Shown in pieces: positions 4,512-18,752 of a DNA stretch of 31,290 nt. The translations under genes and the position numbers were made by a program. Location: IMG/VR virus record IMGVR_UViG_3300034198_002113, positions 1 to 31,290 of that record. One strand, 5' to 3'. How positions within the stretch are numbered: position 1 is the stretch's first letter; every line of letters starts with the position of its first letter. This stretch comes from a virus. The notes below the pieces were generated by a model, which searched no databases, was not told the origin of the DNA, and saw only the letters and a list, made by a program, of their open reading frames with translations.

Positions 4512-4538
4512 GTTTCTTGTTTTTCTTTGTTTCTAAAG

Positions 4539-4566: not shown

Positions 4567-4571
4567 AATAT

Positions 4572-4632
4572 GTTAAAATTTTGTTAAAGTTTTATATCAT
4601 AGTTTTTTATTCAAAATGTATTTATATATTTG
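4572..4632 (+). promoter_or_regulatory. Repeated promoter module, copy 1
   Basis: Two half-sites GTTAAA (4572-4577 and 4583-4588) lie 11 bp apart; TTTTTTATT lies at 4603-4611 and the -7 box TATATTTG at 4625-4632. The distance from the first half-site to the -7 box is 53 bp, the same as in the copies at 12401 and 18692. It drives the operon beginning at 4664. Confidence 0.75.
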
Positions 4633-4663
4633 TCCTATAATTAACAAACAAAAAAAACAAATT

Positions 4664-4747
4664 ATGAAACAAACATTAAAAAATTTAGGATTGGGTTTAT
4701 TATTATGGACTATTTTATTTTCAGTATTATTATTAACAACAATTTAA
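4664..4747 (+). CDS. 27-aa single-pass membrane peptide
   Basis: A very small ORF, MKQTLKNLGLGLLLWTILF followed by SVLLLTTI, with one hydrophobic helix after a basic start. It is the first gene downstream of the promoter module and has the A-rich leader seen before other genes here. The next gene begins 13 bases on. Function is unknown; it could be a membrane-acting early peptide or a leader peptide. Confidence 0.5.
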   Translation: MKQTLKNLGLGLLLWTILFSVLLLTTI

Positions 4748-4760
4748 AAACAAATAAGAT

Positions 4761-4991
4761 ATGGAACAATCAGCAGTAGAATGGCAATTTGAACAATTAT
4801 TCAATTCTTTTGAAAATTTTAATAATGGAAAATATACTTTCGATGAATATCTTTCAAATAATTTAAAAATTAGAGAACAAGCCAAAAATATGGAAAAACA
4901 ACAGATTATAGATGCTTGGGAAGATGGTCAAAATTCATTCCCTACAATTAATGCAGAAAAATATTATAAAGAACAATTTAAAAACAAATAA
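4761..4991 (+). CDS. Conserved small phage protein
   Basis: This 76-aa protein contains EKQQIIDAWEDGQNS (about residues 44-58) and a C-terminal AEKYYKEQFKNK. The same phrases recur in small proteins of many Bacteroidota phages, usually in early or replication operons, and no biochemical role is known. It is acidic and probably helical. It follows the promoter module and the 27-aa membrane peptide, and is separated from the next gene by the short A-rich leader. Confidence 0.75.
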   Translation: MEQSAVEWQFEQLFNSFENFNNGKYTFDEYLSNNLKIREQAKNMEKQQIIDAWEDGQNSFPTINAEKYYKEQFKNK

Positions 4992-4995
4992 GATT

Positions 4996-5175
4996 ATGAA
5001 AGATTTATTAGATTACAACAGATTTAGATTAGAAGCAATGCAAGAGCAGATTTGCAAATTAGAAAGTCATATACAAATATTAGAAACGTATATATTTGAA
5101 TTAGCAGATGAAAATTGCACTGAAGAATACAAAAGAGTAGTTAAACAAGAAATTTATAATTTAAAAACAAATTAA
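4996..5175 (+). CDS. Small coiled-coil protein
   Basis: I chose the ATG at 4996 (59 aa, MKDLLDYNRFRLEAMQEQ) because the longer frame from 4912 runs through the preceding gene and has no leader. Residues 10-40 have heptad-like Leu/Ile spacing (ICKLESHIQILETYIFEL), suggesting a coiled coil. It lies 4 bases after the preceding stop and 1 base before the Erf gene, so it is translationally linked to recombination genes. Function is unknown. Confidence 0.65.
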   Translation: MKDLLDYNRFRLEAMQEQICKLESHIQILETYIFELADENCTEEYKRVVKQEIYNLKTN

Positions 5176-5176
5176 T

Positions 5177-5737
5177 ATGGAATTAACATTAAACCAAAAA
5201 TTATCTTTAATTCAAAAAGAATTTAAAGCAAGCAAATCAAAGTTTAATAGCTTTGGTAAATACAATTTTAGAAGTGCAGAAGATATATTAGAAGCACTTA
5301 AACCTTTTAACGAAAAGTATAAAGTATCTTTTACAATTACAGAATCATTAGTTTATTCGCAGTTTAATGAATTTCCAATGTTATGTTCTACAGCTTCAAT
5401 TAACGATGATATAGATTCTATTTCTGCGACAGCTATTGTTGGTGTAGATTTAGAACAAAAAGGAATGCAAATGCCACAAAAGTTTGGTTCTGCAAGTTCA
5501 TACGCTAAAAAATATGCTTTAGGTAATTTATTGTTAATTGATGATACACAAGACCCTGATGCAACTAATAAACACGATAAAGAACCTGTAACAGACGATT
5601 TAAAATGGTTAAATAAAAATACACCTGAATTTAATAAAGCTATTGAATATTTAAAAAATGGTGGTAATATTGCAACAATAGAATCTAAATATAAAATGAC
5701 TAAAGTAGTCAAAGACGAATTATTAAAAGTTAAATAA
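5177..5737 (+). CDS. erf: Erf-family single-strand annealing protein
   Basis: This 186-aa protein matches the ERF family of phage single-strand annealing recombinases. The N-terminal half has KYNFRSAEDILEALKP (28-43), and the family core phrase SASSYAKKYALGNLLLIDD lies around residues 105-123, followed by a Thr/Asp-rich linker and a small helical C-terminal domain. Erf proteins anneal complementary strands during genome recombination or circularisation. The operon context (NinG upstream, SSB-like protein and RecA-type ATPase downstream, a RecE-like nuclease at 13093) supports this. The stop lies 3 bases before the first attC-like palindrome, so the cassette island was joined directly to the 3' end of this gene. 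Confidence 0.9.
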   Translation: MELTLNQKLSLIQKEFKASKSKFNSFGKYNFRSAEDILEALKPFNEKYKVSFTITESLVYSQFNEFPMLCSTASINDDIDSISATAIVGVDLEQKGMQMPQKFGSASSYAKKYALGNLLLIDDTQDPDATNKHDKEPVTDDLKWLNKNTPEFNKAIEYLKNGGNIATIESKYKMTKVVKDELLKVK

Positions 5738-5740
5738 ATT

Positions 5741-5870
5741 ATAACGGTTTGCGGCTTTGCGATGGTGGGTAAATCGAAGCCGAAAAGTTGAATTTAATAC
5801 AAATGTTTAATCAAGGTACTAATGTTGAATTTTGCACGTCAGCCCCACTATTGCAAAACCGATGTTATGT
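5741..5870 (+). repeat. attC-like palindrome 1
   Basis: Outer arms ATAAC (5741-5745) and GTTAT (5864-5868) pair. An 18-bp inner stem joins 5752-5769 to 5844-5861, with three transitions, two of them G.T-compatible. The spacers between outer and inner stems are unequal (6 and 2 nt). The loop is about 74 nt. Two paired boxes with asymmetric spacers, a total length of about 130 bp and an end reading GTTATGTGCC are the features of integron recombination sites. No integron integrase gene is present. Confidence 0.6.
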
Positions 5871-5890
5871 GCCGTTAATTTCAAACCAAA

Positions 5891-6151
5891 ATGTTTAAAC
5901 GAGGACAAAAAGTAGTTTGCATAAATGACAAAATAAAGCATAGTAACAGACCATTGGGTGCTTTACGTAAAGATGAAATATATACTGTGATTGGTATGGA
6001 TGGCGTAGCTGTTTGGTTAGAGGAAATAAAAGCACCCGTAACCGGTCATTATTATGCTGAAAGATTTAGATTAGTAGAAACTGATTGGGTAGAAGAACTT
6101 TTATGCAAACTAATGTCAGAGGTTGAAGCTGATGAGTTGGTGTCTGTTTAA
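5891..6151 (+). CDS. SH3/KOW-like small protein carried as a cassette
   Basis: This 86-aa protein starts MFKRGQKVVCINDK and continues with LGALRKDEIYTVIG, VAVWLEE and YYAERFRLV. The alternating hydrophobic and Gly/Asp turn pattern suggests a small beta-barrel of SH3 or KOW type; similar proteins are common in phages and mobile DNA but have no defined role. It is the only gene between two attC-like palindromes. The start lies 23 bases after the first GTTAT, and the second palindrome begins 2 bases after the stop, as in one-gene integron cassettes. GC is about 35% by hand count, well above the phage average, and the upstream leader is not the A-rich type seen elsewhere. Confidence 0.75.
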   Translation: MFKRGQKVVCINDKIKHSNRPLGALRKDEIYTVIGMDGVAVWLEEIKAPVTGHYYAERFRLVETDWVEELLCKLMSEVEADELVSV

Positions 6152-6153
6152 TG

Positions 6154-6223
6154 GCACATAACGTTTACAGCTATACGTCAGGTTTTGTTTTTCACAAAAC
6201 TTGCGTATAGGTGGTGTTATCTG
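6154..6223 (+). repeat. attC-like palindrome 2
   Basis: The outer arms are ATAAC (6158-6162) and GTTAT (6216-6220). The inner stem joins CTATACG (6171-6177) to CGTATAG (6204-6210) and continues to GGTTTTG (6181-6187) with CAAAACT (6195-6201), with one extrahelical base. The loop is 7 nt. The ends GGCACATAACG and GTTATCTGC mirror the first element, whose end reads GTTATGTGCC. It lies directly after the 86-aa gene. Confidence 0.65.
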
Positions 6224-6288
6224 CTGGTGCGGTTAATTTAGCAGGATTTTGATTTGAAAACGAATAGAAAATTTAAAAAGTTTTAGCG

Positions 6289-7014
6289 ATGAAATATATG
6301 GGAAGTAAGGCAAGATTTAGTAAAGAGATTTTGCCGATAATATTAAAAGACAGAACAGCCGAACAATGTTATATTGAGCCATTTGCAGGTGGAATGAATA
6401 TTATTTGTGAGGTTGGGGGCAAACGAATAGCAAACGATATTCACTACTATTTAATACAAATGTGGAAAGAACTTGTTAGCGGTTGGATTCCAAAAAAGAT
6501 TACCAAAGAGGAATATTCAGAAGTAAGAACAAACCAAAGCAAATACCCTGCATATTTTGTTGGATGGGTGGGTTTTAACTGCTCTTATTCAGGCAAATGG
6601 TTTGGTGGTTTTGCAGGAGAAACGAAAACTAAAATAGGAACGGTAAGAGATTACCAAACTGAAGCAATAAATAATGTGGCAAAGCAAGTTGAAAAAATGA
6701 AAGGTGTAATATTCCAAAACAAGCCTTACTATGAATTGGAATTGCCACCAAACAGTATTGTTTATTGTGACCCACCTTACGAGGGAACAACAAAATATGC
6801 TAACGACTTTGACCACAATCTTTTTTGGAATTGGGTAAGGAATATTAGCAAACAAGGACATACGGTATTTGTAAGTGAATATAATGCACCTGCTGATTTC
6901 GTTTGCGTATGGGAAAAGGAGGCAAAATCTTCTTTATCGGCAAATGGTAAAATCGGAGGTAATAAGGTGAGCGTGGAAAAACTTTTTAAATTTTCTCCCA
7001 CAAATGTTAATTAG
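6289..7014 (+). CDS. D12-class (Dam-family) adenine-N6 DNA methyltransferase, cassette-borne
   Basis: This 241-aa protein has the D12/Dam order: N-terminal KYMGSKARF (2-10), the AdoMet-binding PFAGG (31-35), an acidic ND before the second strand (49-50), and the catalytic motif IV DPPY (161-164) followed by EGTTKYAND. It transfers methyl from S-adenosylmethionine to N6 of adenine in a specific site. No restriction enzyme partner is visible, so it is an orphan methylase that could protect phage DNA. It lies between the second and third attC-like palindromes. Sampled lines have 35-40% GC, clearly above the about 27% of phage core genes, so recent acquisition is likely. It is shorter than typical Dam (about 270-280 aa) but looks complete. 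Confidence 0.88.
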   Translation: MKYMGSKARFSKEILPIILKDRTAEQCYIEPFAGGMNIICEVGGKRIANDIHYYLIQMWKELVSGWIPKKITKEEYSEVRTNQSKYPAYFVGWVGFNCSYSGKWFGGFAGETKTKIGTVRDYQTEAINNVAKQVEKMKGVIFQNKPYYELELPPNSIVYCDPPYEGTTKYANDFDHNLFWNWVRNISKQGHTVFVSEYNAPADFVCVWEKEAKSSLSANGKIGGNKVSVEKLFKFSPTNVN

Positions 7015-7037
7015 AAGCACTATCGTAGCACTTGCAG

Positions 7038-7107
7038 GTAACTATCGTATAGACGCAGTAAAATATTAAATAAATAAATATAATTTATTGCGTTTATACT
7101 AAGTTAT
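7038..7107 (+). repeat. attC-like palindrome 3 (less certain)
   Basis: TAAC (7039-7042) pairs with GTTA (7103-7106). A 16-bp stem joins 7047-7062 to 7084-7099 with two G.T wobbles, and the spacers between stems are unequal (4 and 3 nt). It has the same architecture as the other two but is AT-rich and ends inside a promoter. It could also be a plain regulatory inverted repeat. Confidence 0.45.
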
Positions 7108-7121
7108 AATTATTATATTTG
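7088..7121 (+). promoter_or_regulatory. Bacteroidota-type promoter before the SSB-like gene
   Basis: TTG at 7088-7090 and TATATTTG at 7114-7121 fit the -33 and -7 boxes, with slightly long spacing. The -33 part lies in the right arm of the third palindrome. It lacks the paired GTTAAA half-sites of the repeated module. Confidence 0.6.
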
Positions 7122-7177
7122 TAAAACTGAATAGCTGACAACAGAAAAAAAAGGTAAGCAAATTAAAAACAAATAAT

Positions 7178-7477
7178 ATGAGTGCATTAATTAATGTTAG
7201 TTTAAGAGTAGACAAATTACCAAAAGAAAAATTTGTTCAAGGTAAAGATGGAGCAGTTTATTACAATTTTACAGTTGCAGTAAACGATAAATCTAACCAA
7301 TGGGGGCAAAATGTTTCTTTAACAGATTCACAAACTAAAGAAGAACGTGAAGCTAAAAAACCTAAAACATATTTAGGTAATGGTAATGTAATTTGGACTA
7401 ATGGAACTATCCAATTAGCAGAGAAAAAAGAAGAAGTATCTTCTAAAGAAGTGGTAAGTTCAGATTTGCCGTTCTAA
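7178..7477 (+). CDS. SSB-like single-stranded DNA-binding protein
   Basis: This 99-aa protein starts MSALINVSLRVDKLPKEKF and has a short beta-rich body (VYYNFTVAVND, NVSLTDSQTKEER, KTYLGNGNVIWTNG) consistent with a compact OB fold. The last residues, after an acidic and Ser-rich linker, are SSDLPF, the acidic hydrophobic tip through which SSB proteins bind partner repair proteins. It is shorter than bacterial SSB (about 150-180 aa) and diverged, but is a recognised pattern in flavobacterial phages. It sits in the recombination and replication block between the cassette island and the RecA-type ATPase. Confidence 0.75.
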   Translation: MSALINVSLRVDKLPKEKFVQGKDGAVYYNFTVAVNDKSNQWGQNVSLTDSQTKEEREAKKPKTYLGNGNVIWTNGTIQLAEKKEEVSSKEVVSSDLPF

Positions 7478-7485
7478 ATTTAATT

Positions 7486-7512
7486 GGGTAGTGTAAAAGC
7501 TACCCTTTTTTT
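7486..7512 (+). terminator. Rho-independent terminator after the SSB-like gene
   Basis: GGGTAG (7486-7491) pairs with CTACCC (7500-7505), with an 8-base loop and seven T at 7506-7512. The next gene starts only 20 bases downstream, so it probably reduces rather than blocks downstream expression. Confidence 0.8.
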
Positions 7513-7532
7513 AAAAACAAGAAAACAATAAT

Positions 7533-8375
7533 ATGGATAAAGAAGCACAAAGGTTATTAATGCAAATGTTTGAAGAAGATTGCTTAATAAATCCATTAGA
7601 GAAAATAGAATACCCGAAACCTGCGATTTCATTTGGTACTAAAAGTTATGATACAAAAGACGGAACAAAAGAATACCCTGTACCTTTAGGAACTTATGGA
7701 AATTTTAGTTTTGTTCAAGCACCACCAAAATCAAAGAAAACATTTTTTGTTAGTTTATTATCTGCAATATATTTAGCAGAAAATTTAGAATCTTTTTGTG
7801 GTGATTTAAAAGCAAATAGTAATAATAAGAATTTAATACATTTTGATACAGAGCAGGGTAATTTTCACGCACAAATGGTATTTAAACGCCCTTTAGATAT
7901 GACAGGTTTAAAAACTAATAAATATCATACTTTAGCATTAAGACAATTATCATTTAAAGAAAGAGTAGATTTTATAGAATATTACCTTTATGACAAATTA
8001 GAAGCAAAAGAAATAGGTTTAGTAATTATTGATGGTATTGCGGATTTATGTAGCGATGTAAATAACATTGAAGAATCTAACGCAGTAGTACAAAAGTTAA
8101 TGAAATGGAGTAAAGAATTAGATTGTCATATAGTAACAGTAATTCACTCTAATTTTGGTTCAGATAAGCCTACAGGTCATTTAGGTAGTTTTTTAGAAAA
8201 GAAAGCAGAAACACAAATACAATTAGAATTAAATACAATTAACAAGGGTTTAGTAACAGTATCTTGCAAACGTTCACGTAACGCACCATTTGAAAACTTT
8301 TCATTTAAAGTTAATAGTTTTGGATTGCCACAAGTTGAAGGTGCTTTTTACGACCCATTAAAAGATATTTTTTAA
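7533..8375 (+). CDS. RecA-superfamily ATPase, replication or recombination (RepA/DnaB-like)
   Basis: The 280-aa protein has a Walker A of the A-P-P-K-S-K-K-T type (63-70) after a beta strand, a DTEQG segment (105-109) in the position of the catalytic Glu strand, and a Walker B LVIID (163-167). These match the hexameric RecA/DnaB/RepA ATPase fold. Proteins of this type act as replicative helicases or recombination ATPases in phages. There is no primase domain. It lies between the SSB-like gene and a DNA methyltransferase, starting 1 base before the latter. The exact activity (helicase or recombinase) cannot be decided from motifs. Confidence 0.78.
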   Translation: MDKEAQRLLMQMFEEDCLINPLEKIEYPKPAISFGTKSYDTKDGTKEYPVPLGTYGNFSFVQAPPKSKKTFFVSLLSAIYLAENLESFCGDLKANSNNKNLIHFDTEQGNFHAQMVFKRPLDMTGLKTNKYHTLALRQLSFKERVDFIEYYLYDKLEAKEIGLVIIDGIADLCSDVNNIEESNAVVQKLMKWSKELDCHIVTVIHSNFGSDKPTGHLGSFLEKKAETQIQLELNTINKGLVTVSCKRSRNAPFENFSFKVNSFGLPQVEGAFYDPLKDIF

Positions 8376-8376
8376 T

Positions 8377-9009
8377 ATGAGTTTAACAATTACAAATGAG
8401 GATAATATGCTTTTAATGTCTCGTTATCCTGATAAATATTTTGAATTGGCTATTGTAGACCCTCCTTATGGTATTGAAGAAATAACAGGAAAAGAAAGTA
8501 GTAACAATAGAGGTGCTATAAATAAGAAAAGAGTATTTGGAATTCAATCAGAAAAATTTAAAGAATGGGATAAATCACCTTCTAAAGAATATTTTATTGA
8601 ATTATTTAGAGTAAGTAAAAATCAAATTATTTGGGGTGGAAATTATTTTGATTTACCTATTTATAGATGTCCTATTGTTTGGGATAAATGCCAACCTTGG
8701 GACACTTATAGTAAAACTGAATTAGCTTGGAGTTCATTTAATATGCCAAGTAGTTTATTTAAATTTGATAATAAAACAGGAGGAAAAATACATCCTACAC
8801 AAAAGCCGATTGAACTTTATAAATGGTTGCTTAATAAATATGCTAATACAGGAGATAAAATATTAGATACACATTTAGGAAGCGGAAGTATTGCAATAGC
8901 TTGTCACGATTACGGATTTGAACTAACTGCTTGTGAACTTGATAAGGAATATTTTGATAAAGCAATGCAACGTATTAAAAATCATACAAATCAAATTAAA
9001 ATTTTTTAA
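8377..9009 (+). CDS. DNA methyltransferase, N6/N4 type
   Basis: The 210-aa protein has catalytic DPPYG early (28-32), then IIWGGNYF, and near the C-terminus HPTQKPIELYKWLL followed by DTHLGSGSIAIAC (about 164-176), the AdoMet-binding motif I. This order (DPPY before the GxG motif) is the beta-type arrangement of the N6_N4_Mtase family, unlike the D12 enzyme at 6289. It modifies adenine N6 or cytosine N4. Its base composition matches the phage core, so it is an older resident than the cassette methylase. There is no restriction endonuclease next to it. Anti-restriction protection of phage DNA is the likely role. Confidence 0.88.
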   Translation: MSLTITNEDNMLLMSRYPDKYFELAIVDPPYGIEEITGKESSNNRGAINKKRVFGIQSEKFKEWDKSPSKEYFIELFRVSKNQIIWGGNYFDLPIYRCPIVWDKCQPWDTYSKTELAWSSFNMPSSLFKFDNKTGGKIHPTQKPIELYKWLLNKYANTGDKILDTHLGSGSIAIACHDYGFELTACELDKEYFDKAMQRIKNHTNQIKIF

Positions 9010-9010
9010 A

Positions 9011-9307
9011 ATGCAAACAACAATTAAAACACATTTACAAGATTTACAAACTTCTGCAACACGAATGTTAACGTTAAATTCAGATAATAAAATGTTAATA
9101 AGTTATTTTAAAGACTTGAATGAAAAGTTAATATATTTACAGCAGTTAGTTGAAATGGATTCAAAGTATAATTGGTTAGAAATAGAAAATATAATGAACC
9201 TATTAAAAAATCAAGATTCAGAACTAACTAACATTAATGTAAATTTTAAAATTAAAGAAGTAACAACAGAAAAAAAAGAAGCATTTTTAACAATTAAAAG
9301 TTTATAG
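9011..9307 (+). CDS. Small helical protein of unknown function
   Basis: I chose the ATG at 9011, one base after the methyltransferase stop, giving 98 aa starting MQTTIKTHLQDLQTS. The longer frame back to 8933 lies inside the methyltransferase. The body is helical with a Leu/Lys-rich middle (YFKDLNEKLIYLQQLV) and a Lys- and Thr-rich end. No motif was recognised. Its position in the replication operon suggests an accessory role only. Confidence 0.65.
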   Translation: MQTTIKTHLQDLQTSATRMLTLNSDNKMLISYFKDLNEKLIYLQQLVEMDSKYNWLEIENIMNLLKNQDSELTNINVNFKIKEVTTEKKEAFLTIKSL

Positions 9308-9308
9308 T

Positions 9309-9533
9309 ATAGAATTATTTACAGTAGCATTAGTAATTATTTTAGCATTAGTATTTTTAGCAACAAGTTTTTTTGAATGTGATGTTATTATAACGCCAAT
9401 TAAAGGAGTAATGTTTGGTGCTTTATATAATAATGATGTATATGATATTGAAACAGACCATACAATTCAGGTAGTAATATTATTTATATCATTCAATTTT
9501 TTATGGACAACTTCAAATGGCTTGAACAAGTAG
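9309..9533 (+). CDS. Two-pass membrane protein without a canonical start codon
   Basis: An open frame of 74 codons between the previous stop and the TAG at 9531. It encodes a hydrophobic N-terminus (ELFTVALVIILALVFLATS), a middle FECDVIITPIKGVMFGALYN, acidic VYDIETDH and a second hydrophobic stretch (IQVVILFISFNFLW). This looks like a known phage membrane protein type, and the coding pattern is clean. The frame is open from 9291 and contains no ATG, GTG or TTG before the first helix; the best start is ATA at 9309, just after the preceding TAG. Rare-codon initiation, reinitiation or a sequence error are possible. It overlaps the sigma-like gene by 31 bases. Confidence 0.55.
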   Translation: MELFTVALVIILALVFLATSFFECDVIITPIKGVMFGALYNNDVYDIETDHTIQVVILFISFNFLWTTSNGLNK

Positions 9534-10045
9534 CAAAACACCACAAAGAATGGGTTAAAACAATCCAAAAACTTGGTGAATATGACTATGCAGAAGATAT
9601 AGTACAAGAATCTTATATTGCTTTAATGAAGTACGCAAACGCAGAAAAATTAATAGACGATAAAGGAAATGTAAGAAAAGGATATATGTTTTTTACATTA
9701 CGTTCTTTATTTTATCAATTCTACAATAAGAAAAAAACTATTAATAAAGTTCCTTTTGATGGATGTTGGGAATTATTTGATGATTCTAACATTGAAGAAC
9801 ATAAAGCATATAACGATATTTGCTTAATGATTGATGAAGAAATAGATAATTGGGGGTGGTATGACAAGAAGCTGTTTAAATTGTATCGTGATAATGATTT
9901 ATCAATGCGTGATATTTCAAAAGAAACTACAATAAGTTTAATTAGTATTTTTCATAGCATTAAAAACTATAAAGAAATATTAAGAAATAAGTTTCAAAAA
10001 CAATATGATGAATACAAAACTAATGATTATAATACACAATATTAA
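9503..10045 (+). CDS. Sigma-70-like (ECF-type) RNA polymerase sigma factor
   Basis: This 180-aa protein resembles region 2 of sigma-70 factors near the N-terminus (YAEDIVQESYIALMKYAN, 28-45) and has a C-terminal helix-turn-helix like region 4 (LYRDNDLSMRDISKETTISL followed by a recognition helix, about 129-155). Group 4 sigma factors have this two-domain form and usual size (about 180 aa). It could direct host RNA polymerase to phage promoters, for example the repeated module found at 4572, 12401 and 18692; that link is inference. The start overlaps the previous membrane ORF. The region 2 match is weak in places, so a DNA-binding protein with sigma-like domains is also possible. Confidence 0.7.
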   Translation: MDNFKWLEQVAKHHKEWVKTIQKLGEYDYAEDIVQESYIALMKYANAEKLIDDKGNVRKGYMFFTLRSLFYQFYNKKKTINKVPFDGCWELFDDSNIEEHKAYNDICLMIDEEIDNWGWYDKKLFKLYRDNDLSMRDISKETTISLISIFHSIKNYKEILRNKFQKQYDEYKTNDYNTQY

Positions 10046-10047
10046 TT

Positions 10048-10551
10048 ATGACAAAAGAACAAATTTATCAAAAAGAATATAGGTTAAAAAATAAAGAAAA
10101 AATAGCTGAAACAGCTAAAAAATATTTTGAAGAAAATAAAGAAAAGATTGCTAATTATAAAAGAGAACATTATTTAAAAAATAAAGAAAAGATTGAAAAG
10201 TACCGAAATGAATGGCGAAATAATAAAGTAAAAGTAGATTCTTTATTTAAATTAACTAATAACACAAGAACTTTAATTAAACAATCTTTTAGAAGAAATG
10301 GATATTCTAAAAATTCTAAAACTTTTCAAATATTAGGATGTACTTTTGAAGAGTTTAAAGAGCATTTACAAAATAAATTTACTGAAGGTATGAATTGGAA
10401 TAATATAGGCGAATGGCATTTAGACCATATATATCCTGTATCACTTGCTAAAGATGAAGATAAATTAATAAAACTAAATCATTATACTAATTTTCAACCT
10501 TTATGGGCATTAGATAATATAAAAAAAAGTAACAAAATAATTAATAATTAA
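10048..10551 (+). CDS. HNH homing-type endonuclease
   Basis: The 167-aa protein has a Lys- and Glu-rich coiled N-terminus made of repeated K-N-K-E-K-I blocks, which looks like DNA-binding spacer helices, and a C-terminal HNH domain: WHLDHIYPVSLAKDEDK (about 127-143), then LNHYTNFQPLWALDN and KSNK. The first His/Asp pair, Asn and final Lys fit the HNH metal site. It is a free-standing endonuclease of the kind that spreads by cutting homologous phage DNA. It begins 2 bases after the sigma-like gene, with no A-rich leader gap, consistent with later insertion into the operon. Confidence 0.88.
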   Translation: MTKEQIYQKEYRLKNKEKIAETAKKYFEENKEKIANYKREHYLKNKEKIEKYRNEWRNNKVKVDSLFKLTNNTRTLIKQSFRRNGYSKNSKTFQILGCTFEEFKEHLQNKFTEGMNWNNIGEWHLDHIYPVSLAKDEDKLIKLNHYTNFQPLWALDNIKKSNKIINN

Positions 10552-10563
10552 AATCAAATTAAA

Positions 10564-10941
10564 ATGGCAAAACAAAAAGCAACAGGTTTAGGTGATACTA
10601 TTGAGCAAATCACAGAAGCAACAGGAATTAAAAAAGTAGTAGAAGTATTTAGCAAAGCAACAGGTTTAGATTGTGGTTGTGATGAACGTAAAGAAAAGTT
10701 AAACAAATTATTTTCTTATAATAGAAATATTAATTGTTTAAATGAAAAAGATTATAATGCTTTAACAGAGTTTATGGATTCTAAAAAAAATACTTTAACT
10801 CCTGAAGAACAAAAAGTAATTTCTGATATTTATTACAATGTTTTTAATTATCGTTTAGAATTAAGTTCGTGTGGTTCTTGTTGGGCTAACAAAATTAAAG
10901 AACTGAAACAAGTTTACAACGAATATAAAATTAATGATTAA
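10564..10941 (+). CDS. Conserved Cys-containing phage protein
   Basis: This 125-aa protein starts MAKQKATGLGDTIEQITEAT and has two Cys groups, DCGCDERK (about 36-43) and SSCGSCWANK (about 101-110), that could bind a metal. The GLGDTIE...TGIKKVV start followed by DCGC is a pattern I recognise from many Bacteroidota phages, usually near structural or packaging genes. Function is unknown. It overlaps the next gene by 8 bases. Confidence 0.72.
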   Translation: MAKQKATGLGDTIEQITEATGIKKVVEVFSKATGLDCGCDERKEKLNKLFSYNRNINCLNEKDYNALTEFMDSKKNTLTPEEQKVISDIYYNVFNYRLELSSCGSCWANKIKELKQVYNEYKIND

Positions 10942-12235: not shown

Positions 12236-12240
12236 AAGTT

Positions 12241-12384
12241 ATGCCAATACCACAACCAAATCAAGGTGAACACGAAAAAGAATTTGTACAACGATGTATG
12301 ATAGATGAAAAGATGAAAAAAGAATATCCTGATGTAGACCAAAGATACACAGTTTGTAGAAGTCAAATTAAGAGTAGTAAATAG
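12241..12384 (+). CDS. Small conserved phage protein (RCM...YPD..QR..VC type)
   Basis: This ORF encodes 47 aa. Key parts are MPIPQPNQGE at the start, FVQRCM (15-20), EYPDVDQR (28-35) and TVCRSQ (37-42). The same Cys and YPD-QR pattern occurs in many tailed phages, where it can stand alone or be joined to head maturation proteins; two Cys could bind a metal. Its role is unknown. It is the last gene of the operon: the stop codon lies in the loop of the terminator hairpin at 12371-12391. Confidence 0.72.
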   Translation: MPIPQPNQGEHEKEFVQRCMIDEKMKKEYPDVDQRYTVCRSQIKSSK

Positions 12385-12398
12385 CTACTCTTTTTTTT
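12371..12398 (+). terminator. Rho-independent terminator, end of replication operon 1
   Basis: AGAGTAG (12371-12377) pairs perfectly with CTACTCT (12385-12391); the loop holds the stop codon of the 47-aa gene, and eight T follow (12391-12398). The second copy of the repeated promoter module begins 2 bases later. Confidence 0.9.
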
Positions 12399-12400
12399 AT

Positions 12401-12461
12401 GTTAAAATTTTGTTAAAATTTATAAAAAAGTTTTTTATTGTAAATAACTTGTTTATATTTG
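12401..12461 (+). promoter_or_regulatory. Repeated promoter module, copy 2
   Basis: GTTAAA half-sites at 12401-12406 and 12412-12417 (11 bp apart), TTTTTTATT at 12431-12439, and TATATTTG at 12454-12461. First half-site to -7 box is 53 bp, as in copies 1 and 3. It drives the operon starting at 12500. Confidence 0.78.
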
Positions 12462-12499
12462 TATAACAATTTAAAACAATAATAATTAAAAAAAAAATT

Positions 12500-12685: not shown

Positions 12686-12696
12686 AAACAAACATT

Positions 12697-12906
12697 ATGA
12701 CACAAAAAGAAATTATTGAAAGATTAGAAAGCATTACTTGGTTAATGGCAGAAGTAGAAAATACATTTGTTAAACACGAATTAGAAAAAATTACAGAAGC
12801 TATAAAGGCACAATTTAATTATTCAGATACGTATGAACAAGAAGTAAAAGATGTATTGAATTACGATGAAACAATGTTTAATTTAAATAATATAAAAATA
12901 AGATAA
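12697..12906 (+). CDS. Small helical protein of unknown function
   Basis: A 69-aa acidic, mostly helical protein, MTQKEIIERLESITWLMAEV at the start. It follows the previous gene by 11 bases across the usual A-rich leader and shares 1 base with the next. No motif is recognised. Confidence 0.6.
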   Translation: MTQKEIIERLESITWLMAEVENTFVKHELEKITEAIKAQFNYSDTYEQEVKDVLNYDETMFNLNNIKIR

Positions 12907-13109
12907 TGAACGAACTTGCATTAGTTAAGATACAATCTAAAATACTTGGTTTAGATAGGGAATTAAAACAATATGTAGATGAATTGTTATCAGGTCAAGG
13001 TTTATTAAGTGATGACCAATTAAGCAAAGCTATAAACAGCACAACAAGAGAATTAAGTATTTATAACTATATTTTAAAATTAATAATAATAAATGGAAAC
13101 AACAATTAG
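12906..13109 (+). CDS. Small helical protein of unknown function
   Basis: A 67-aa protein, MNELALVKIQSKILGLDREL at the start, helical, with a hydrophobic C-terminal stretch (YNYILKLIIINGNNN). It overlaps the RecE-like nuclease gene by 17 bases, so it probably helps couple its translation. No function is recognised. Confidence 0.6.
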   Translation: MNELALVKIQSKILGLDRELKQYVDELLSGQGLLSDDQLSKAINSTTRELSIYNYILKLIIINGNNN

Positions 13110-13866
13110 AACTTTCGACAACAAGATTTGGGATAAACAAGAACTATTAGACAATATGTATGAAGATGATTTTTACTATGGTTATTTAGGTAAAAACGCT
13201 TTAAGTAGTTCAAGTTTAAAGATGCTGATACAATCACCAAAAACTTATAAATATGTTACTAAATATGGTTCAGGTGAATCACAAGTTTTGAGAGATGGTA
13301 AACTATTTCACACAATGATATTAGAACCACATAAAATAGATGAACTTGTAATTGTAGATGTAGCAACAAAAGCAGGAAAAGCATACAAAGAAGCTAAAGA
13401 ACAAGGTTTAGATGTTTATACTTCAAAGGAATTAAAAGATGCAGAACGTTTAGCAGATGCACTATTAAGGAATGATGAAGCAGTAAGTTATATGAACAAA
13501 GCACAATTTGAAATACCTGCAATAGCTATGATAGATGGAATACCATTTAGAGCAAAAGCAGATATATTAAAAGGTAATACTATTATAGATTTAAAAACTA
13601 CAACAGGTTTAAATGAATTTCGTTATTCTGCATCCAAATATAGCTATGATTTACAAGCTTATTTGTATCGTGAAATGTTTGGTGTAGATAATTTTGTTTT
13701 TGTTGCAATAGATAAAGGAAGTTTAGATATTGGAATATTTGAATGTAGTGATGAATTTTACGAAAGTGGTAAAAGAAAACTAGAACAAGGTATAGCAAAT
13801 TATAAATATTTCTTTGGTAATGATAAAGTAGATTTAAACCAATATGTATTAAGAGGTATTTTATAA
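13093..13866 (+). CDS. RecE/Cas4-like PD-(D/E)XK exonuclease
   Basis: This 257-aa protein has the marks of the exonuclease VIII-type PD-(D/E)XK family: LSSSSLKMLIQSPKTYKY (36-53) and GKLFHTMILEP (about 69-79) near the N-terminus, then FRAKADIL (D of the motif), TIIDLKTT with E-x-K-like DLK, and SYDLQAYLYREMFG containing the conserved Q-x-x-x-Y. These enzymes resect double-stranded DNA to give single strands for annealing, and here pair naturally with the Erf protein at 5177 and the SSB-like protein at 7178. Length is close to the usual catalytic domain. The genes are separated by 7 kb, unlike the tight red or recET pairs. Confidence 0.85.
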   Translation: METTIRTFDNKIWDKQELLDNMYEDDFYYGYLGKNALSSSSLKMLIQSPKTYKYVTKYGSGESQVLRDGKLFHTMILEPHKIDELVIVDVATKAGKAYKEAKEQGLDVYTSKELKDAERLADALLRNDEAVSYMNKAQFEIPAIAMIDGIPFRAKADILKGNTIIDLKTTTGLNEFRYSASKYSYDLQAYLYREMFGVDNFVFVAIDKGSLDIGIFECSDEFYESGKRKLEQGIANYKYFFGNDKVDLNQYVLRGIL

Positions 13867-13868
13867 TT

Positions 13869-13920
13869 GTTAAAAAAGTGTTAATTATTTTTATATATCA
13901 AAATTAAATAATATATTTAC
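13869..13920 (+). promoter_or_regulatory. Shortened variant of the repeated promoter module, copy 4
   Basis: GTTAAA (13869-13874) and GTTAAT (13880-13885) lie 11 bp apart, and TATATTTA lies at 13912-13919. The half-site to -7 distance is 43 bp, ten less than the other copies, about one helical turn. The -7 box has A instead of G. Confidence 0.45.
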
Positions 13921-13943
13921 AGAGTAATTAAAAAAAAATAAAA

Positions 13944-14162
13944 ATGCAATTCGAAACTATTGGTTATTCAAAAGATTATTATACACTAGATAAAAAATAC
14001 ATCGGCTCTTTAGTATGTGAAAAAGATAGAGAAGTTTATGGCTATTTAGGCAGAAAAATAGAAATATTAGAAGAAGAAATAATATTAAGAAAAAAGAAAA
14101 TAAAAAAAGGTACTGAATTAATCACAGAAATTTTTCCTTTAAATGGTAAAATTATAAATTAA
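13944..14162 (+). CDS. Small protein of unknown function
   Basis: This 72-aa protein (MQFETIGYSKDYYTLDKKYI) has a helical, charged middle (KIEILEEEIILRKKKIKKG). It starts the operon behind the variant promoter module and precedes the glycosyltransferase by 6 bases. The function is unknown. Confidence 0.6.
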   Translation: MQFETIGYSKDYYTLDKKYIGSLVCEKDREVYGYLGRKIEILEEEIILRKKKIKKGTELITEIFPLNGKIIN

Positions 14163-14168
14163 TAAATT

Positions 14169-15497
14169 ATGAAACAACCCAAGAATTTAAGAATATTGCA
14201 TTTTTTAAGTCCTGTAAAATGGAACGCTGATACTTTTTTATCAGATGCAGATGCAAATTTTAAAGTAATGAAAAAGACAATAGAGTTTTTACCTGATTGT
14301 CATCATTATATATTAATGCCTTCTAAAGCAACAGAAGTAATATATCAAAAAAATGTTACCAATATTAGATATGAATATCCACACAGCGTTTTTTTAAATC
14401 GTTATCATTTTGACCATAAAAAAATAGTAGGTTTTAATTTTGATAAAATTGATGTAGATTATATATTTAACCATCAACCAGAACAATCTTTGTCCTTACA
14501 AGTATGGTTTGGTTCAAATAGATATTACAGAGATATTTATACATTTAACTTTTTTCATTGGATTGATTGTTACGAATCAGGCGGAGGCTTTAAAGACGTT
14601 CAACCTATTAATTTTTTAAGACAGTACGAAGCAACTGTAATAGGTGATTATAATTTTTTTCATACACAAAAAAGTGTTAATTATTTATTATCTAATTTTG
14701 AGAAGTTAAATTATATGCCAGAAATAAAGAATGTTCGATTTATGCCTTTATCGGGTAAAGCTACTGAAGTTAAATCTGAATTTGATTTGCCTAATAAAAA
14801 GATAGTTGTATTTAATCATAGATGGAATAAATCATCAGGCACAGAAAGATTTTTAAAATACATTGAAAATATTTCAGATGATTATGTTTTTTGGATTACA
14901 GATGAAAAAAATTGCGATGTTAAACGTGATAATTTTATTGTAAAATCATTGAATTACGAAGATTTTAATTACTTAATGAATAACTGTTATTGTAATTTAA
15001 CTTTTATTGACGGATATACTACTTGGAATCTATCCTCGCAAGATTGTTTAGTAAGAAACAAGCCAGCATTAATATACGATAATGAAATTATTGATACAGT
15101 TTGTCAAGGCAAAGCATATAAATTTAAAAGTAAAAAAGAATTTCAAAGCTTATTAGAAAATTTACCTGATAAAATAGAAAGTTATAATGTAGAATTACAC
15201 GATGATTTATTTAAAAAAAATTTAATAGAATCTTTAAATGAAACTTGGGAATCTACAAAGCAAATACCTAAAGCCGCAGATGATTTTATGAATTGCGTAA
15301 AGAATAAAAAATTAAGAACTAAAAAAGATATTTTAACACAAGTTCATAATGGTATTATTTCAAATGGTTCAAATCACGGAATTAGAAGATATGTATTACA
15401 TAATGGCTTAATAGATGATACAAACGAACCATACCCTACATATTATCTAGAAGAAGAAGAAATAATAAAAGAAGTTAATTTATTTAATAATTTTTAA
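14169..15497 (+). CDS. GT-B fold glycosyltransferase-like protein
   Basis: This 442-aa protein resembles group 1 (GT4-type) glycosyltransferases: an N-terminal domain with LRILHFLSPVKWNAD, then VVFNHRWNKSSGTERFLKY (212-230) at the start of the sugar-nucleotide domain, FWITDE, and near the active end SSQDCLVRNKPALIY, in the place of the family's E-x-x-x-G-x-P-x-I nucleotide-binding loop. The C-terminal 80 residues, with GIRRYVLHNGLIDD, look like an extra module. The substrate cannot be told. In phages such enzymes may glycosylate modified DNA bases or alter host surface sugars; the location in a DNA-metabolism operon, not near tail genes, favours DNA or intracellular targets. No base-hydroxymethylating enzyme is visible. 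Confidence 0.65.
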   Translation: MKQPKNLRILHFLSPVKWNADTFLSDADANFKVMKKTIEFLPDCHHYILMPSKATEVIYQKNVTNIRYEYPHSVFLNRYHFDHKKIVGFNFDKIDVDYIFNHQPEQSLSLQVWFGSNRYYRDIYTFNFFHWIDCYESGGGFKDVQPINFLRQYEATVIGDYNFFHTQKSVNYLLSNFEKLNYMPEIKNVRFMPLSGKATEVKSEFDLPNKKIVVFNHRWNKSSGTERFLKYIENISDDYVFWITDEKNCDVKRDNFIVKSLNYEDFNYLMNNCYCNLTFIDGYTTWNLSSQDCLVRNKPALIYDNEIIDTVCQGKAYKFKSKKEFQSLLENLPDKIESYNVELHDDLFKKNLIESLNETWESTKQIPKAADDFMNCVKNKKLRTKKDILTQVHNGIISNGSNHGIRRYVLHNGLIDDTNEPYPTYYLEEEEIIKEVNLFNNF

Positions 15498-15498
15498 G

Positions 15499-15957
15499 AT
15501 GCAAACAAGAAAAAAATTTAATCCTAGTTATCACAATAATGAATTTAATTATTTAATAAGTGAGTTAACAGATTTAAAGCGTTCTATTATAGATATTGAT
15601 TGTATGATAACAAAATATAAATATAATACTTTTATGATTGACCATAAAAAAAATGAAGATACTACTTCGATAAATACATTAATGCATCTATCAAATTATG
15701 TAGGCATTACTTTAAATGATAAAACTAAAGTACAATGTTTTATAGTTCGTTCAAATGTAAATACTGAAATTTGCGAAACTTTAAATGGCGTTTCTATGAT
15801 TTATGAAATAAAAAATATTAACGATGTAGTAGATAAAAAAAATAAAACTGATTTTATAAAAGGTATATTTAAAGCAAAAAATGATACTGAATTAAAATTA
15901 TTTTTTCAGCAAGAAACACACGAACAAACAAAAGAAAAATTAAGATTCGAATTTTAA
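15499..15957 (+). CDS. Protein of unknown function
   Basis: This 152-aa protein starts MQTRKKFNPSYHNNEFNYL and follows the glycosyltransferase by one base. It is mixed alpha/beta, with a central stretch (MHLSNYVGITLNDKTKVQCF) and a charged C-terminus. No motif was recognised. The tight junction suggests co-translation with the glycosyltransferase, so it may be its partner. Confidence 0.62.
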   Translation: MQTRKKFNPSYHNNEFNYLISELTDLKRSIIDIDCMITKYKYNTFMIDHKKNEDTTSINTLMHLSNYVGITLNDKTKVQCFIVRSNVNTEICETLNGVSMIYEIKNINDVVDKKNKTDFIKGIFKAKNDTELKLFFQQETHEQTKEKLRFEF

Positions 15958-15968
15958 AAACAAATAAT

Positions 15969-16493
15969 ATGGAAATTACTCAAAGATTAAAAGAAATCAT
16001 TAAGCAAGAAACAAACACAGATATAGAAGTAAGAACACGAAAAAGAGAAACAATAGAAATGCGTTCACTATATTGTAATGTACTAAAAGAATTAAAGCCA
16101 AACAAAACACTACAAGCAATAGGTGATACATTAGAATTAAATCACGCTACAGTAATACACGCATTAAAGAACTATAAAATGTATGAAGAATATAACCCTG
16201 AATTAAAAAAGTTTAGAACAACTGTATTAAGTTATTTTACAATAGACAATGAAGAAGAATTAAAAGAACTAACAGATATAGAAAAAGCAAAACACGAAAT
16301 ACATAAACTAACATTAGAAAACCATAATCTAAAAAGAGAACTAAAAGAACAAATAGAAACACCAAGATACGAACACAAAATAATAGATGAACTAAATACA
16401 TTAATGACAAACACTAAAGGTACAATACAACACACATTAATACAAGATAGATTAGAAGCATTTTACACAATGAATAAAAACATAAAACTATGA
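15969..16493 (+). CDS. DnaA domain IV-like DNA-binding protein
   Basis: The first 80 residues of this 174-aa protein resemble domain IV of bacterial DnaA: IEVRTRKRETIEMRSLYCNV (19-38), then LQAIGDTLELNHATVIHALK (about 49-68), matching the family pattern of R-x-R, R-x-x-x-x-Y and IG-x-x-x-x-x-x-H-x-T-V-x-H-A. The H-A/S-T-V-I-H-A signature contacts the DnaA box. There is no AAA+ ATPase domain, so it binds DNA without being an initiator ATPase. The rest is a helical, Glu/Lys-rich coiled segment. Possible roles are marking the phage origin, recruiting helicase or hindering host DnaA. It overlaps the next gene by 4 bases. Confidence 0.78.
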   Translation: MEITQRLKEIIKQETNTDIEVRTRKRETIEMRSLYCNVLKELKPNKTLQAIGDTLELNHATVIHALKNYKMYEEYNPELKKFRTTVLSYFTIDNEEELKELTDIEKAKHEIHKLTLENHNLKRELKEQIETPRYEHKIIDELNTLMTNTKGTIQHTLIQDRLEAFYTMNKNIKL

Positions 16494-16648
16494 ACACTAT
16501 AGACCCAATAACACCATACGAGAGAGCTGTAATACTTTACAATAAATATACTAAAGAATATAATCGAAGTGTATGTATGGGTACAATGCAACAAACAGAA
16601 CACTGGAAAGAAGTAACAAAAGAATTAGCAAAGCTTTATAAAAAATAA
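16490..16648 (+). CDS. Small protein of unknown function
   Basis: This ORF encodes 52 aa (MNTIDPITPYERAVILYNKY), starting 4 bases inside the end of the DnaA-like gene and ending 2 bases before the next. It is helical and basic, with an acidic-basic C-terminal helix (KEVTKELAKLYKK). The tight spacing supports a real gene; no function is known. Confidence 0.58.
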   Translation: MNTIDPITPYERAVILYNKYTKEYNRSVCMGTMQQTEHWKEVTKELAKLYKK

Positions 16649-16650
16649 TT

Positions 16651-16884
16651 ATGGCAGATATAACTAAATGCGAAGATAATCTTTGCCCATCAAAAGAAAC
16701 TTGTTATAGATACACAGCACCTGAATCATTATATTGGCAATCTTATGGTTTATTTAATCGTGAAGAAGATGAAGATAATTGTGATATGTTTTGGGATAAT
16801 GGTTTAAGTTGTAAGTATTGTCATCTATTAAATGGTAATCACAAATTAAGTTGTAAAACTATGAAGATACAAGTTAATATTTAA
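16651..16884 (+). CDS. Cys-rich conserved phage protein
   Basis: A 77-aa protein with an N-terminal CEDNLCPSKETCYRYTA (7-23), the phrase YWQSYGLF, CDMFW, and CKYC at 54-57. The first Cys group followed by YWQSY is familiar in small proteins of Bacteroidota phages; zinc binding is plausible. It lies 2 bases after the previous stop and is the last gene before the packaging genes. The function is unknown. Confidence 0.7.
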   Translation: MADITKCEDNLCPSKETCYRYTAPESLYWQSYGLFNREEDEDNCDMFWDNGLSCKYCHLLNGNHKLSCKTMKIQVNI

Positions 16885-16941
16885 ACAACAATAGATTTTA
16901 TTTATTATTATTTAAATTGAATAATCATTATTTATTTCATT

Positions 16942-17241
16942 ATGGAAAAGTCAAGAGGTGGAGCCAGACCAAATGCAGGTCGTAAATCAAAAGTAGAAGA
17001 AGAAAAAGTAAACAATGTATTTTTAAAAGCTTTAGGCGAATTATATAATAAAGAAACTGAAGAAGATACAAAGATAGCTTTTGTAAAGGATACATTAATG
17101 CAATCACAAAGAGGGCAATTATTTATTGCAGAACATATATTTGGTAAACCTAAAGAAACTATAGAAGCTACACACAACGTAAACGATTTTAACATAAAAG
17201 ATATATTTAAGGTTGGGAATAGCAATAAATCAGAAATATAA
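16942..17241 (+). CDS. Terminase small subunit-like protein
   Basis: This 99-aa protein starts MEKSRGGARPNAGRKSKVEE, a basic GGARPNAGRKSK start found on small terminase subunits and other phage DNA-binding proteins. The rest is helical, and it overlaps the large subunit gene by 29 bases. Small subunits recognise the packaging start on phage DNA and regulate the large subunit. It is shorter than usual (about 140-180 aa) and has no clear helix-turn-helix, so the name depends on position and the start motif. Confidence 0.7.
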   Translation: MEKSRGGARPNAGRKSKVEEEKVNNVFLKALGELYNKETEEDTKIAFVKDTLMQSQRGQLFIAEHIFGKPKETIEATHNVNDFNIKDIFKVGNSNKSEI

Positions 17242-18421
17242 TCTATTAGGTTCAGATAGTAGATACTTTGTAATAACAGGTGGAAGGGGAAGTGGTAAAT
17301 CATATTCCCTTAACTCGTTTCTATTACTATTAACCTATGAAGCAGGACACGTAATATTATTTACAAGATATACTTTAACTTCTGCATCTGTTTCTATTAT
17401 ACCTGAATTTATAGATAAAATTGATACAGCTGATTTAAGCAACGATTTTTATATAACTAAAGATGAAATAGTAAATTTAAAAACAGGGTCTAAAATCTTA
17501 TTTAAAGGTATTAAAACAAGCAGTGGAACGCAAACAGCTTCGCTTAAATCTTTAGCAGGAGTTACTACTTGGGTATTAGATGAAGCGGAAGAATTAACAG
17601 ATGAAGAAACTTTTGAAAAGATAGACTTCAGTATTAGAACAAAAGGAATACACAATAGAGTTCTTTTAGTATTAAACCCTGCAACAAAGGAACACTTTAT
17701 TTATAAGAAATTCTTTGAAGATAAAGGTGTAGAAGCAGGAAGCAATTTAATAAAAGGAGATACTACCTATATACATACAACTTATTTAGACAATATAGAA
17801 AATCTATCTGAATCATTTATAAATCAAATAGAGAATATAAAACAACGCAGACCTGAAAAGTATAAGCACCAAATATTAGGTGGTTGGTTAGACAAAGCAG
17901 AGGGAGTTATATTTACTAATTGGAAGATAGGTGAATATAAACAAATAGGTAAATCAGTATTCGGACAAGATTTTGGATTTAGCAATGACCCTACAACACT
18001 TGTAGAATGCAATATAGACACTTCTAACAAACGAATTTATATAAATGAGCGTTACTATCTACAAGCATTAACAACGTCGCAAATATACGCTTTAAATAAG
18101 CAACATTGTTTAGATAGTTTAATAGTAGCTGATTCTGCAGAACCAAGATTAATATTAGAACTACAAACAGCAGGGTTAAATATAGTACCTGCAATTAAGG
18201 GTCAAGGTTCTGTAACTTATGGTATATCACTTTTGCAAGATTACGATTTAATAGTATCACCTGAATCAATTAATTTAATTAAAGAACTAAATAACTATTG
18301 TTGGTTAGAAAAGAAAAGCAATACACCAATAGATAATCACAATCACTTAATAGATGCTTTAAGATATGCAGTTAGTCATCAATTAGAGAATCCAAATAAA
18401 GGTAATTATTTTATATATTAA
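17213..18421 (+). CDS. terL: Terminase large subunit (packaging ATPase and nuclease)
   Basis: The 402-aa protein begins with TTG at 17213 (no ATG is near in this frame). The Walker A GGRGSGKS lies at 23-30, the Walker B TWVLDEAEE around 119-127 with catalytic Glu, and a coupling-type NPA follows (LVLNPATKEHF). The C-terminal nuclease has FGQDFGFSNDPT, DSAEPR and HLIDALRYAVSH, whose Asp residues form the metal site. This is the Terminase_3 (PBSX-like) layout. It powers DNA packaging into the prohead and cuts concatemers. It overlaps the small subunit gene by 29 bases, and its 3' end is followed immediately by a 9-bp palindrome. Confidence 0.95.
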   Translation: MGIAINQKYNLLGSDSRYFVITGGRGSGKSYSLNSFLLLLTYEAGHVILFTRYTLTSASVSIIPEFIDKIDTADLSNDFYITKDEIVNLKTGSKILFKGIKTSSGTQTASLKSLAGVTTWVLDEAEELTDEETFEKIDFSIRTKGIHNRVLLVLNPATKEHFIYKKFFEDKGVEAGSNLIKGDTTYIHTTYLDNIENLSESFINQIENIKQRRPEKYKHQILGGWLDKAEGVIFTNWKIGEYKQIGKSVFGQDFGFSNDPTTLVECNIDTSNKRIYINERYYLQALTTSQIYALNKQHCLDSLIVADSAEPRLILELQTAGLNIVPAIKGQGSVTYGISLLQDYDLIVSPESINLIKELNNYCWLEKKSNTPIDNHNHLIDALRYAVSHQLENPNKGNYFIY

Positions 18422-18450
18422 TGTCGCAAATTAATACTATTTTTGCGACA
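18422..18450. other. Perfect 9-bp inverted repeat after terL
   Basis: TGTCGCAAA (18422-18430) is the exact reverse complement of TTTGCGACA (18442-18450), separated by 11 bases that contain a TACTATTTTTG promoter-like stretch. There is no long T run, so it is not a typical terminator. A partial echo, TGTCG...TTGACA, lies at 18461-18476. It may be an operator or transcript-end structure. Confidence 0.5.
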
Positions 18451-18484
18451 AAGTAAATGATGTCGAAAACTTGACAAATTAACT

Positions 18485-18634
18485 ATGACATACGGACAAA
18501 TGATTGCAACTATTCAATGCTATATACATCACGTTAAGAATATAGAAGTTAATATAAATCTACCACGCAATATAGGTGAAATTAAGAAGATGCAACAAAT
18601 GTATGCTATAGCTGTAGAGTATCTGAAAGCGTAA
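18485..18634 (+). CDS. Small protein of unknown function
   Basis: This ORF encodes 49 aa (MTYGQMIATIQCYIHHVKNI at the start, ending QMYAIAVEYLKA). It is predicted mixed helix with no recognised motif and lies alone between terL and the third promoter module. The surrounding spacer (18422-18783) otherwise holds only the palindrome and the promoter. The coding pattern is reasonable, but the gene is unproven. Confidence 0.45.
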   Translation: MTYGQMIATIQCYIHHVKNIEVNINLPRNIGEIKKMQQMYAIAVEYLKA

Positions 18635-18691
18635 CATATTTAAAACATAATTGTTACATTTGTAAATGTTGTTTAGCTTAAAAAATAAAAC

Positions 18692-18752
18692 ATTAAACAA
18701 AAGTTAAAGTTTTATAAAATGTTTTTTTATTAAAATATAGTTTTTATATTTG
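18692..18752 (+). promoter_or_regulatory. Repeated promoter module, copy 3
   Basis: ATTAAA (18692-18697) and GTTAAA (18703-18708) lie 11 bp apart, TTTTTTATT at 18723-18731, and TATATTTG at 18745-18752. The first half-site lies exactly 53 bp before the -7 box, as in copies 1 and 2. A further -7-like TACATTTG is at 18655-18662. Confidence 0.72.

Follow-up and report, generated by a model that had tools for sequence, protein, structure and literature searches.

A phased bipartite element upstream of the -7 box in Bacteroidota phage promoters, possibly read by a host response regulator of the OmpR/PhoB type

Sigma-A promoters of Bacteroidota are recognised by their -7 box, TAnnTTTG (PMC9723704, PMC7366714; here and below, published work is cited from the portions of each paper available to us). 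A response-regulator site of interest here has been described elsewhere: the WalR/VicR site is the direct repeat TGTWAH-N5-TGTWAH, which was refined for VicR to TGTWAHA-N4-TGTWAHA (PMC4168254), and in a Synechococcus cyanophage, genes are under the control of the host phoBR system (PMC10976474). In the following, we describe a 61-bp promoter module that occurs at three distant loci of a virus DNA of 31,290 bases (IMG/VR record IMGVR_UViG_3300034198_002113, positions 1 to 31,290, in its entirety referred to as the window), and which consists of two half-sites of the sequence (A/G)TTAAA in fixed geometry upstream of a -7 box. All three modules share the TAnnTTTG box with the known sigma-A promoters, but the available portions of the two papers on these promoters mention no bipartite element upstream of it, the search in Bacteroides thetaiotaomicron having spanned only positions -50 to +1 (PMC9723704, PMC7366714).

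The modules were read directly from the plus strand. Modules 1 and 2 contain the direct repeat GTTAAA-N5-GTTAAA, at 4572..4588 (half-sites 4572-4577 and 4583-4588) and 12401..12417 (half-sites 12401-12406 and 12412-12417), while module 3 contains ATTAAA-N5-GTTAAA at 18692..18708 (half-sites 18692-18697 and 18703-18708). The box is TATATTTG in each case and lies at 4625..4632, 12454..12461 and 18745..18752, respectively. As claimed in the original prediction, which had been made from the sequence of this stretch, the half-sites stand 11 bp apart, 53 and 42 bp upstream of the box in three of three modules, giving a length of 61 bp each. The claim of an exactly fixed geometry holds for half-sites and box; it fails for the T-rich stretch TTTTTTATT (4603..4611, 12431..12439 and 18723..18731, all read directly on the plus strand), which is found 22, 23 and 22 bp ahead of the box. 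This stretch lies where a -33 element would fall, and was set aside as a candidate for such an element, given that its position shifts by 1 bp and that no -33 motif was identifiable in Flavobacterium johnsoniae, according to the available portion of the study (PMC7366714).

All three TAnnTTTG boxes are located in non-coding stretches ahead of a gene, as is the case for Bacteroidota sigma-A promoters. On both strands taken together, the window contains eight TTAAA-N6-TTAAA pairs, three of which precede TATATTTG. In order-2 Markov simulations of the window, modules at any distance numbered 0.007 on average, and not one of 2000 simulations reached the three modules observed. We rank chance AT-richness low as a cause. 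A fourth intergenic TATATTTG (7114-7121, plus strand), situated before an SSB-like gene, is preceded by a single TTAAA at 48 bp and by no half-site pair; therefore, not every promoter-like box of this phage is equipped with the module.

The arrangement extends far beyond this window. A scan of IMG/VR for GTTAAA-N5-GTTAAA, followed by 19-49 bases and TATATTTG, returned at least 119 stretches, many of which are homologous promoters, such that the matches are not independent. Among the matches listed, 120 of 121 distinct ones in the scanned range of 36-66 bp lie at 42-44, 52-55 or 63-64 bp; in a slightly wider reading range, the 123 distinct matches listed comprise 49 at 42-44 bp, 68 at 52-55 bp, three at 63-64 bp, one at 74 bp and two elsewhere (18 and 40 bp). 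The preferred distances between half-site and box thus advance in steps of about 10.5 bp, corresponding to a helical turn. The module-bearing contigs, among the matches listed, include one of 368 kb (L122) and three that, judging by their contig names, are derived from isolates (L106, L112 and L161). When both gaps were left free (loci L004, L094-L130 and L259-L324), 51 of 115 GTTAAA pairs were found to be 10-11 bp apart, with 50 of these 51 being phased. The reversed half-site AAATTG, used as a control in the same type of scan, gave a flat distribution, with 7 of 118 pairs at 10-11 bp, and a complete scan of the collection with the wrong box TTGATATT gave 39 stretches, 29 of them distinct, without phasing. 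The reversed box GTTTATAT proved unusable as a control, as it overlaps real boxes read as GTTTATATTTG; removal of these overlaps left 43 of 72 distinct matches, with no clear phasing.

The half-site itself emerged from an unbiased k-mer test on 87 phage promoters, in which the top 6-mer was GTTAAA near 42 bp (27 occurrences, compared to 1.9 expected). Where selection had been on TTAAA only (n=26 and 32), a G preceded it in 96-100% of cases. The half-site logo reads (T)GTTAAA, the T ahead of the first G being present in only 73% and 44% of sites for the two registers. The orientation is biased too, with 77 direct pairs, 7 reversed and 0 inverted. In one viral promoter family (11 contigs within L787-L818), TGTAAA-N5-TGTAAA is found 44 bp before TATATTTG and may represent a variant of the module.

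For the relatives of the phage, we relied on at least 80 IMG/VR loci obtained in a terminase search. Among the matches listed, most occurrences of GTTAAA ahead of TATATTTG in these loci fall at 31-33, 41-44 and 52-53 bp, with few at other distances up to 120 bp; the spacing of half-sites in relatives, which had been put forward as a check, is phased rather than random. At 1522 distinct TANNTTTG sites, many of which fall inside coding sequence, GTTAAA occurs 201 times at 13 phased positions and 63 times at 30 other positions (25-67 bp), and its reverse complement TTTAAC occurs 34 times at phased and 36 times at other positions. Conservation of promoter 3 was followed in 70 loci that extend at least 500 bp 3' of the terminase, searching within 650 bp. 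The full module is present in 53 of these 70, in register 51/52 in 25 and in register 41/42 in 28 (counted from TTAAA), and thus the same promoter occurs in two registers one turn apart; nine of the remaining relatives match less well, having one phased GTTAA or, in six of these, two, and eight show none. Sixteen loci measure 14 kb or more; they contain 37 modules (counted with RTTAAW as the relaxed half-site), every one of which is on the coding strand. Each of these loci has one to four, and both registers are mixed within single loci. The constrained 11-bp spacing, the orientation and the steps of about 10.5 bp, in relatives as well as in unrelated phages, lend support to the earlier suggestion of a protein on one face of the DNA, and to its being sequence-specific.

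The picture among named phages is uneven. Riemerella phage RAP44, for which the complete genome is available, has a minus-strand pair near 48110, at 53/43 bp before TATATTTG, and Flavobacterium phage 11b has one phased half-site, 43 bp ahead of its erf operon. No phased pair before a TANNTTTG box was seen in the inspected regions of Tenacibaculum pT24, Chryseobacterium MA9V-2 and Cellulophaga phiSM, no convincing module in filifjonk9-1, and no module in Nonlabens P12024L and the first 50 kb of Cellulophaga phi13:1. When module-like sequences were compared with named phages by BLAST, most of the matches were weak and rich in A and T.

Bacterial chromosomes contain the module as well. Four of 295 genomes had a match; these genomes were sampled evenly across the class to which G001, a Bacteroidales metagenome-assembled genome, belongs. 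Both matches in one of them, G289, lie on small contigs, one being identical to the promoter of viral locus L041 across the whole matched stretch, and for these reasons the contigs are probably phage. As phage-like contigs with the module in a bacterial assembly, the two (C47 and C57; L092 and L093) may point to a host of this phage group, or else reflect a binning artefact. The group of G289 (64 genomes) yielded four matches, namely the two of G289, a third at 54 bp, where the box is TAACTTTG, and a fourth at 60 bp. For the order sampled through G115, single matches were obtained in 17 of 151 genomes, 15 of them at 43-45 or 53-56 bp and the others at 60 and 62 bp, with one match in the control. 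The family sampled through G273, which we would guess to be Flavobacteriaceae, gave 34 listed matches in 30 of 199 genomes, 33 of which are phased (41-44, 53-56 or 64-65 bp) and one of which lies at 49 bp, with two matches in the control. With the wider pattern TGTTAAA-N4-TGTTAA and any TANNTTTG box, the number of genomes in this family rose to 73 of 199, with three control matches; most of the matches are a PadR promoter.

The genes behind these host modules, mainly PadR and TetR operons and DegP-like proteases, were read by open reading frame, and eight were checked by Pfam. DUF4870-PadR operons account for 18 of the 34 matches in the family and have a palindrome between module and box; the ordered combination of TGTTAAA repeat, palindrome and TATATTTG is kept across much of this one bacterial family (for example L230-L258 and L534-L560). 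TetR operons were also found, between them showing four or more distinct palindromes, and we infer that the palindromes are operators of PadR and TetR, which would act as autorepressors. As the promoters of unrelated repressors share one upstream element, the module is not part of any single repressor system. Further host modules precede DegP-like proteases (L085 1501-1572, L238 and L239; truncated sequences with weak Trypsin_2 matches). In front of one of these genes, four half-sites stand in phase, at 64, 53, 43 and 32 bp.

Since chromosomes of bacteria without this phage carry the module, a reader encoded by the host is favoured over a phage activator, and we consider the module to be probably read by a host protein. 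Observed sequence, geometry, phasing, orientation, conservation and host occurrence together suggest protein binding, activation and a type of regulator: tentatively, and ahead of the other explanations discussed below, we propose that each 61-bp module combines a sigma-A promoter with a two-part activating site upstream of it, for a host reader of the OmpR/PhoB type. Sigma-A (TAnnTTTG) promoters would then carry a site with the consensus TGTTAAA-N4-TGTTAAA in either of two registers one turn apart, the half-sites being placed 53/42 or 42/31 bp before the box, that is, at about -65/-54 or -54/-43 from the start site, assuming that the box starts at -12. A host protein would occupy the two half-sites in head-to-tail fashion, along a single face of the DNA, and contact RNA polymerase, the likeliest candidate being a WalR/VicR/PhoB-like response regulator. 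For the phage, the module would serve as a common 'on' signal for all three mapped operons, including the structural one, replacing a cascade of phage-made activators.

The OmpR/PhoB type is favoured because TGTTAAA-N4-TGTTAAA matches the VicR consensus; both sites are direct repeats with an 11-bp period, and the module consensus fits the refined VicR consensus at every position (PMC4168254). Relatives of the regulator, as candidates, are present in hosts: OmpR-type DNA-binding domains number 5-7 per genome in four of four hosts tested, and the PDB matches of a regulator universal to them include VicR, YycF/WalR and PhoB. This universal regulator may be PhoB, although a PstB motif search in host stretches covering part of each genome found none. 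In three of the four genomes, its own promoter shows a -7-like TATCTTTA that is preceded, at exactly 53/42 bp, by GTTAT/C-N6-GTTAT, with diverged intervening sequence. The module differs from WalR/VicR sites in that it belongs to another phylum, stands at two fixed registers before a Bacteroidota box in phages, and avoids TGTTAT variants in viruses. For the general idea, the control of cyanophage genes by phoBR is a published precedent, as there, and by our proposal here, phage genes are subject to a host two-component regulator; however, the cyanophage places a stress-responsive subset of its genes under this control (PMC10976474), whereas here all three mapped operons would be concerned.

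Several points speak against this assignment. The module is rare on host chromosomes, with about 0.1-0.4 per genome, which is odd for a global regulator, and several cultured flavophages lack it. The pho box of E. coli is located one turn nearer to the core promoter, and no phosphate-regulon gene was among the host matches read. The tie to the universal regulator is weak, a lead rather than a result: its repeats read GTTAT, and just 1 of 19 distinct viral TGTTAT pairs has the module geometry, and the regulator promoter in the fourth genome has no repeats at 53/42 bp. TGTAAA pairs, for their part, are phased in part only, with 17 of 42 distinct viral pairs at 41-44 bp, 11 of which stem from the one promoter family mentioned above.

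The main rival to an OmpR/PhoB-type reader is an UP element, in E. coli the site of the C-terminal domain (CTD) of the RNA polymerase alpha subunit. Two alpha CTDs would in this case bind the half-sites directly, as a built-in strengthener that requires no activator, which is conceivable but, in our judgement, doubtful. The half-site centres near -62, -51 and -40 coincide with positions at which alpha CTDs bind in E. coli, the phased location at about -40 to -65 agrees with E. coli-type UP elements in distance from the start site and in helical phasing, and two registers one turn apart would suit a flexible linker. An alpha CTD is present in ten of ten hosts, with R265, N268, C269, G296, K298 and S299, the DNA-contact residues of the E. 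coli domain, conserved by eye, and the presence of the module ahead of promoters with a variety of unrelated repressors is what one would expect of an element that simply adds strength. However, E. coli-type UP elements are made of A-tracts with no strict demand on single bases, whereas the half-sites are strictly GTTAAA, in one orientation and with a nearly invariant G. Host rRNA promoters (22 loci, some overlapping, from 11 genomes) are without a GTTAAA pair and have A-tracts at similar places instead, and 227 host promoters (1.2 Mb) are without clear GTTAAA enrichment, with 6 of the 60 stretches chosen for holding a module match. The A-tracts of the rRNA promoters (L442-L463, 5' of 16S rRNA) resemble classical UP elements and are found around 44-38 and 33-28 bp ahead of the -7 box, and two or three -7 boxes often follow each other in a row.

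A host DNA-binding protein of a different family could likewise read 11-bp direct repeats; it would share the geometry and the host evidence, with only the VicR-like consensus tying the site to one family, but we regard it as rather unlikely, given that WalR and VicR, which are of the OmpR type, bind head-to-tail 11-bp repeats of such sequence (PMC4168254). The original prediction had allowed for a phage or a host activator, of which the host part is now favoured and the phage part has lost ground. Candidates for a phage-encoded activator that binds the half-sites and co-ordinates the phage operons are a sigma-like protein (9503..10045, plus strand; Sigma70_r2 0.0012 and UPF0122 0.00048, both weak and below cut-off) and a protein with a helix-turn-helix resembling DnaA domain IV (15969..16493, plus strand; Bac_DnaA_C 6e-07, just below cut-off). 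Among the matches listed, the module-bearing loci L094-L211, mostly fragments, contain the sigma-like protein in 34 and the DnaA-C-like protein in 40 cases, a frequency that can be explained by both being common in the window's own group, where they occur in 22 and 51, respectively, of the at least 80 terminase loci. A phage activator appears quite improbable to us, as the complete genome of RAP44 has the module and no homologue of either protein at E 1e-4, as host chromosomes carry it in the same geometry, and as replication-type and structural operons are both equipped with it. The DnaA box, moreover, is unlike GTTAAA, and neither protein had a match in the named-phage collection at E 1e-5. 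An operator for a repressor or silencer, in place of an activator site, would be in keeping with the location of host copies in repressible promoters; we nevertheless give it hardly any credence, since each host operon has a palindrome of its own in the core, of a sequence that changes from operon to operon, whereas all have the module in common, which is placed further upstream, where activators bind, and is phased with the box in a manner that suits an activator.

The window as a whole has a G+C content of 22-36% per kilobase, and its long open reading frames are almost all on the plus strand. The closest terminase large subunit of a named phage, with 56% identity, is that of Nonlabens phage P12024L, based on which the source virus is a tailed phage of Bacteroidota, probably a flavobacterial one. 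The terminase coordinates of OQ791282.1, named Shigella phage Henu10, equal those of Riemerella phage vB_RanS_PT15; the record may be mislabelled. In agreement with the original prediction, modules 1 and 2 directly follow intrinsic terminators, at 4535..4567 (approximate limits; fold -16.4 kcal/mol, z -5.9) and 12370..12399 (fold -11.0 kcal/mol, z -4.0), both on the plus strand; folding supports both of them, and a pattern scan detected only the one of module 2. No terminator was seen ahead of module 3. By PHROG and Pfam matches, promoter 1 is followed by genes for a small peptide, Erf, methylases, an AAA ATPase and the sigma-like protein, and promoter 2 by genes for an exonuclease, the DnaA-C-like protein and the terminase large subunit. 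Downstream of promoter 3 (18745), there are matches to tail/tape-measure, head-protease and portal families; as this promoter is followed by structural genes, the three operons are not all early, contrary to what had been assumed.

The module, then, is not peculiar to this phage, and is far wider than first seen. In a literature search of open-licence papers, judged mostly by title and the start of the abstract, no description of the element was found. For the broader interpretation, we see the case as evenly balanced: TGTTAAA-N4-TGTTAAA may be an undescribed upstream element of Bacteroidota, read by one conserved host activator in two registers, which many phage families would have adopted as their main switch, tying expression of the whole genome to a host signal, and which the hosts would keep for a few strongly repressed or stress operons. 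Past the -7 box, little is known of how transcription is controlled in Bacteroidota and their phages, and operon prediction in many uncultured phages would benefit from a short element by which phage promoters of different families can be recognised. The module also offers natural promoters to try in Bacteroidota, and it points to one host factor on which many phages may depend.

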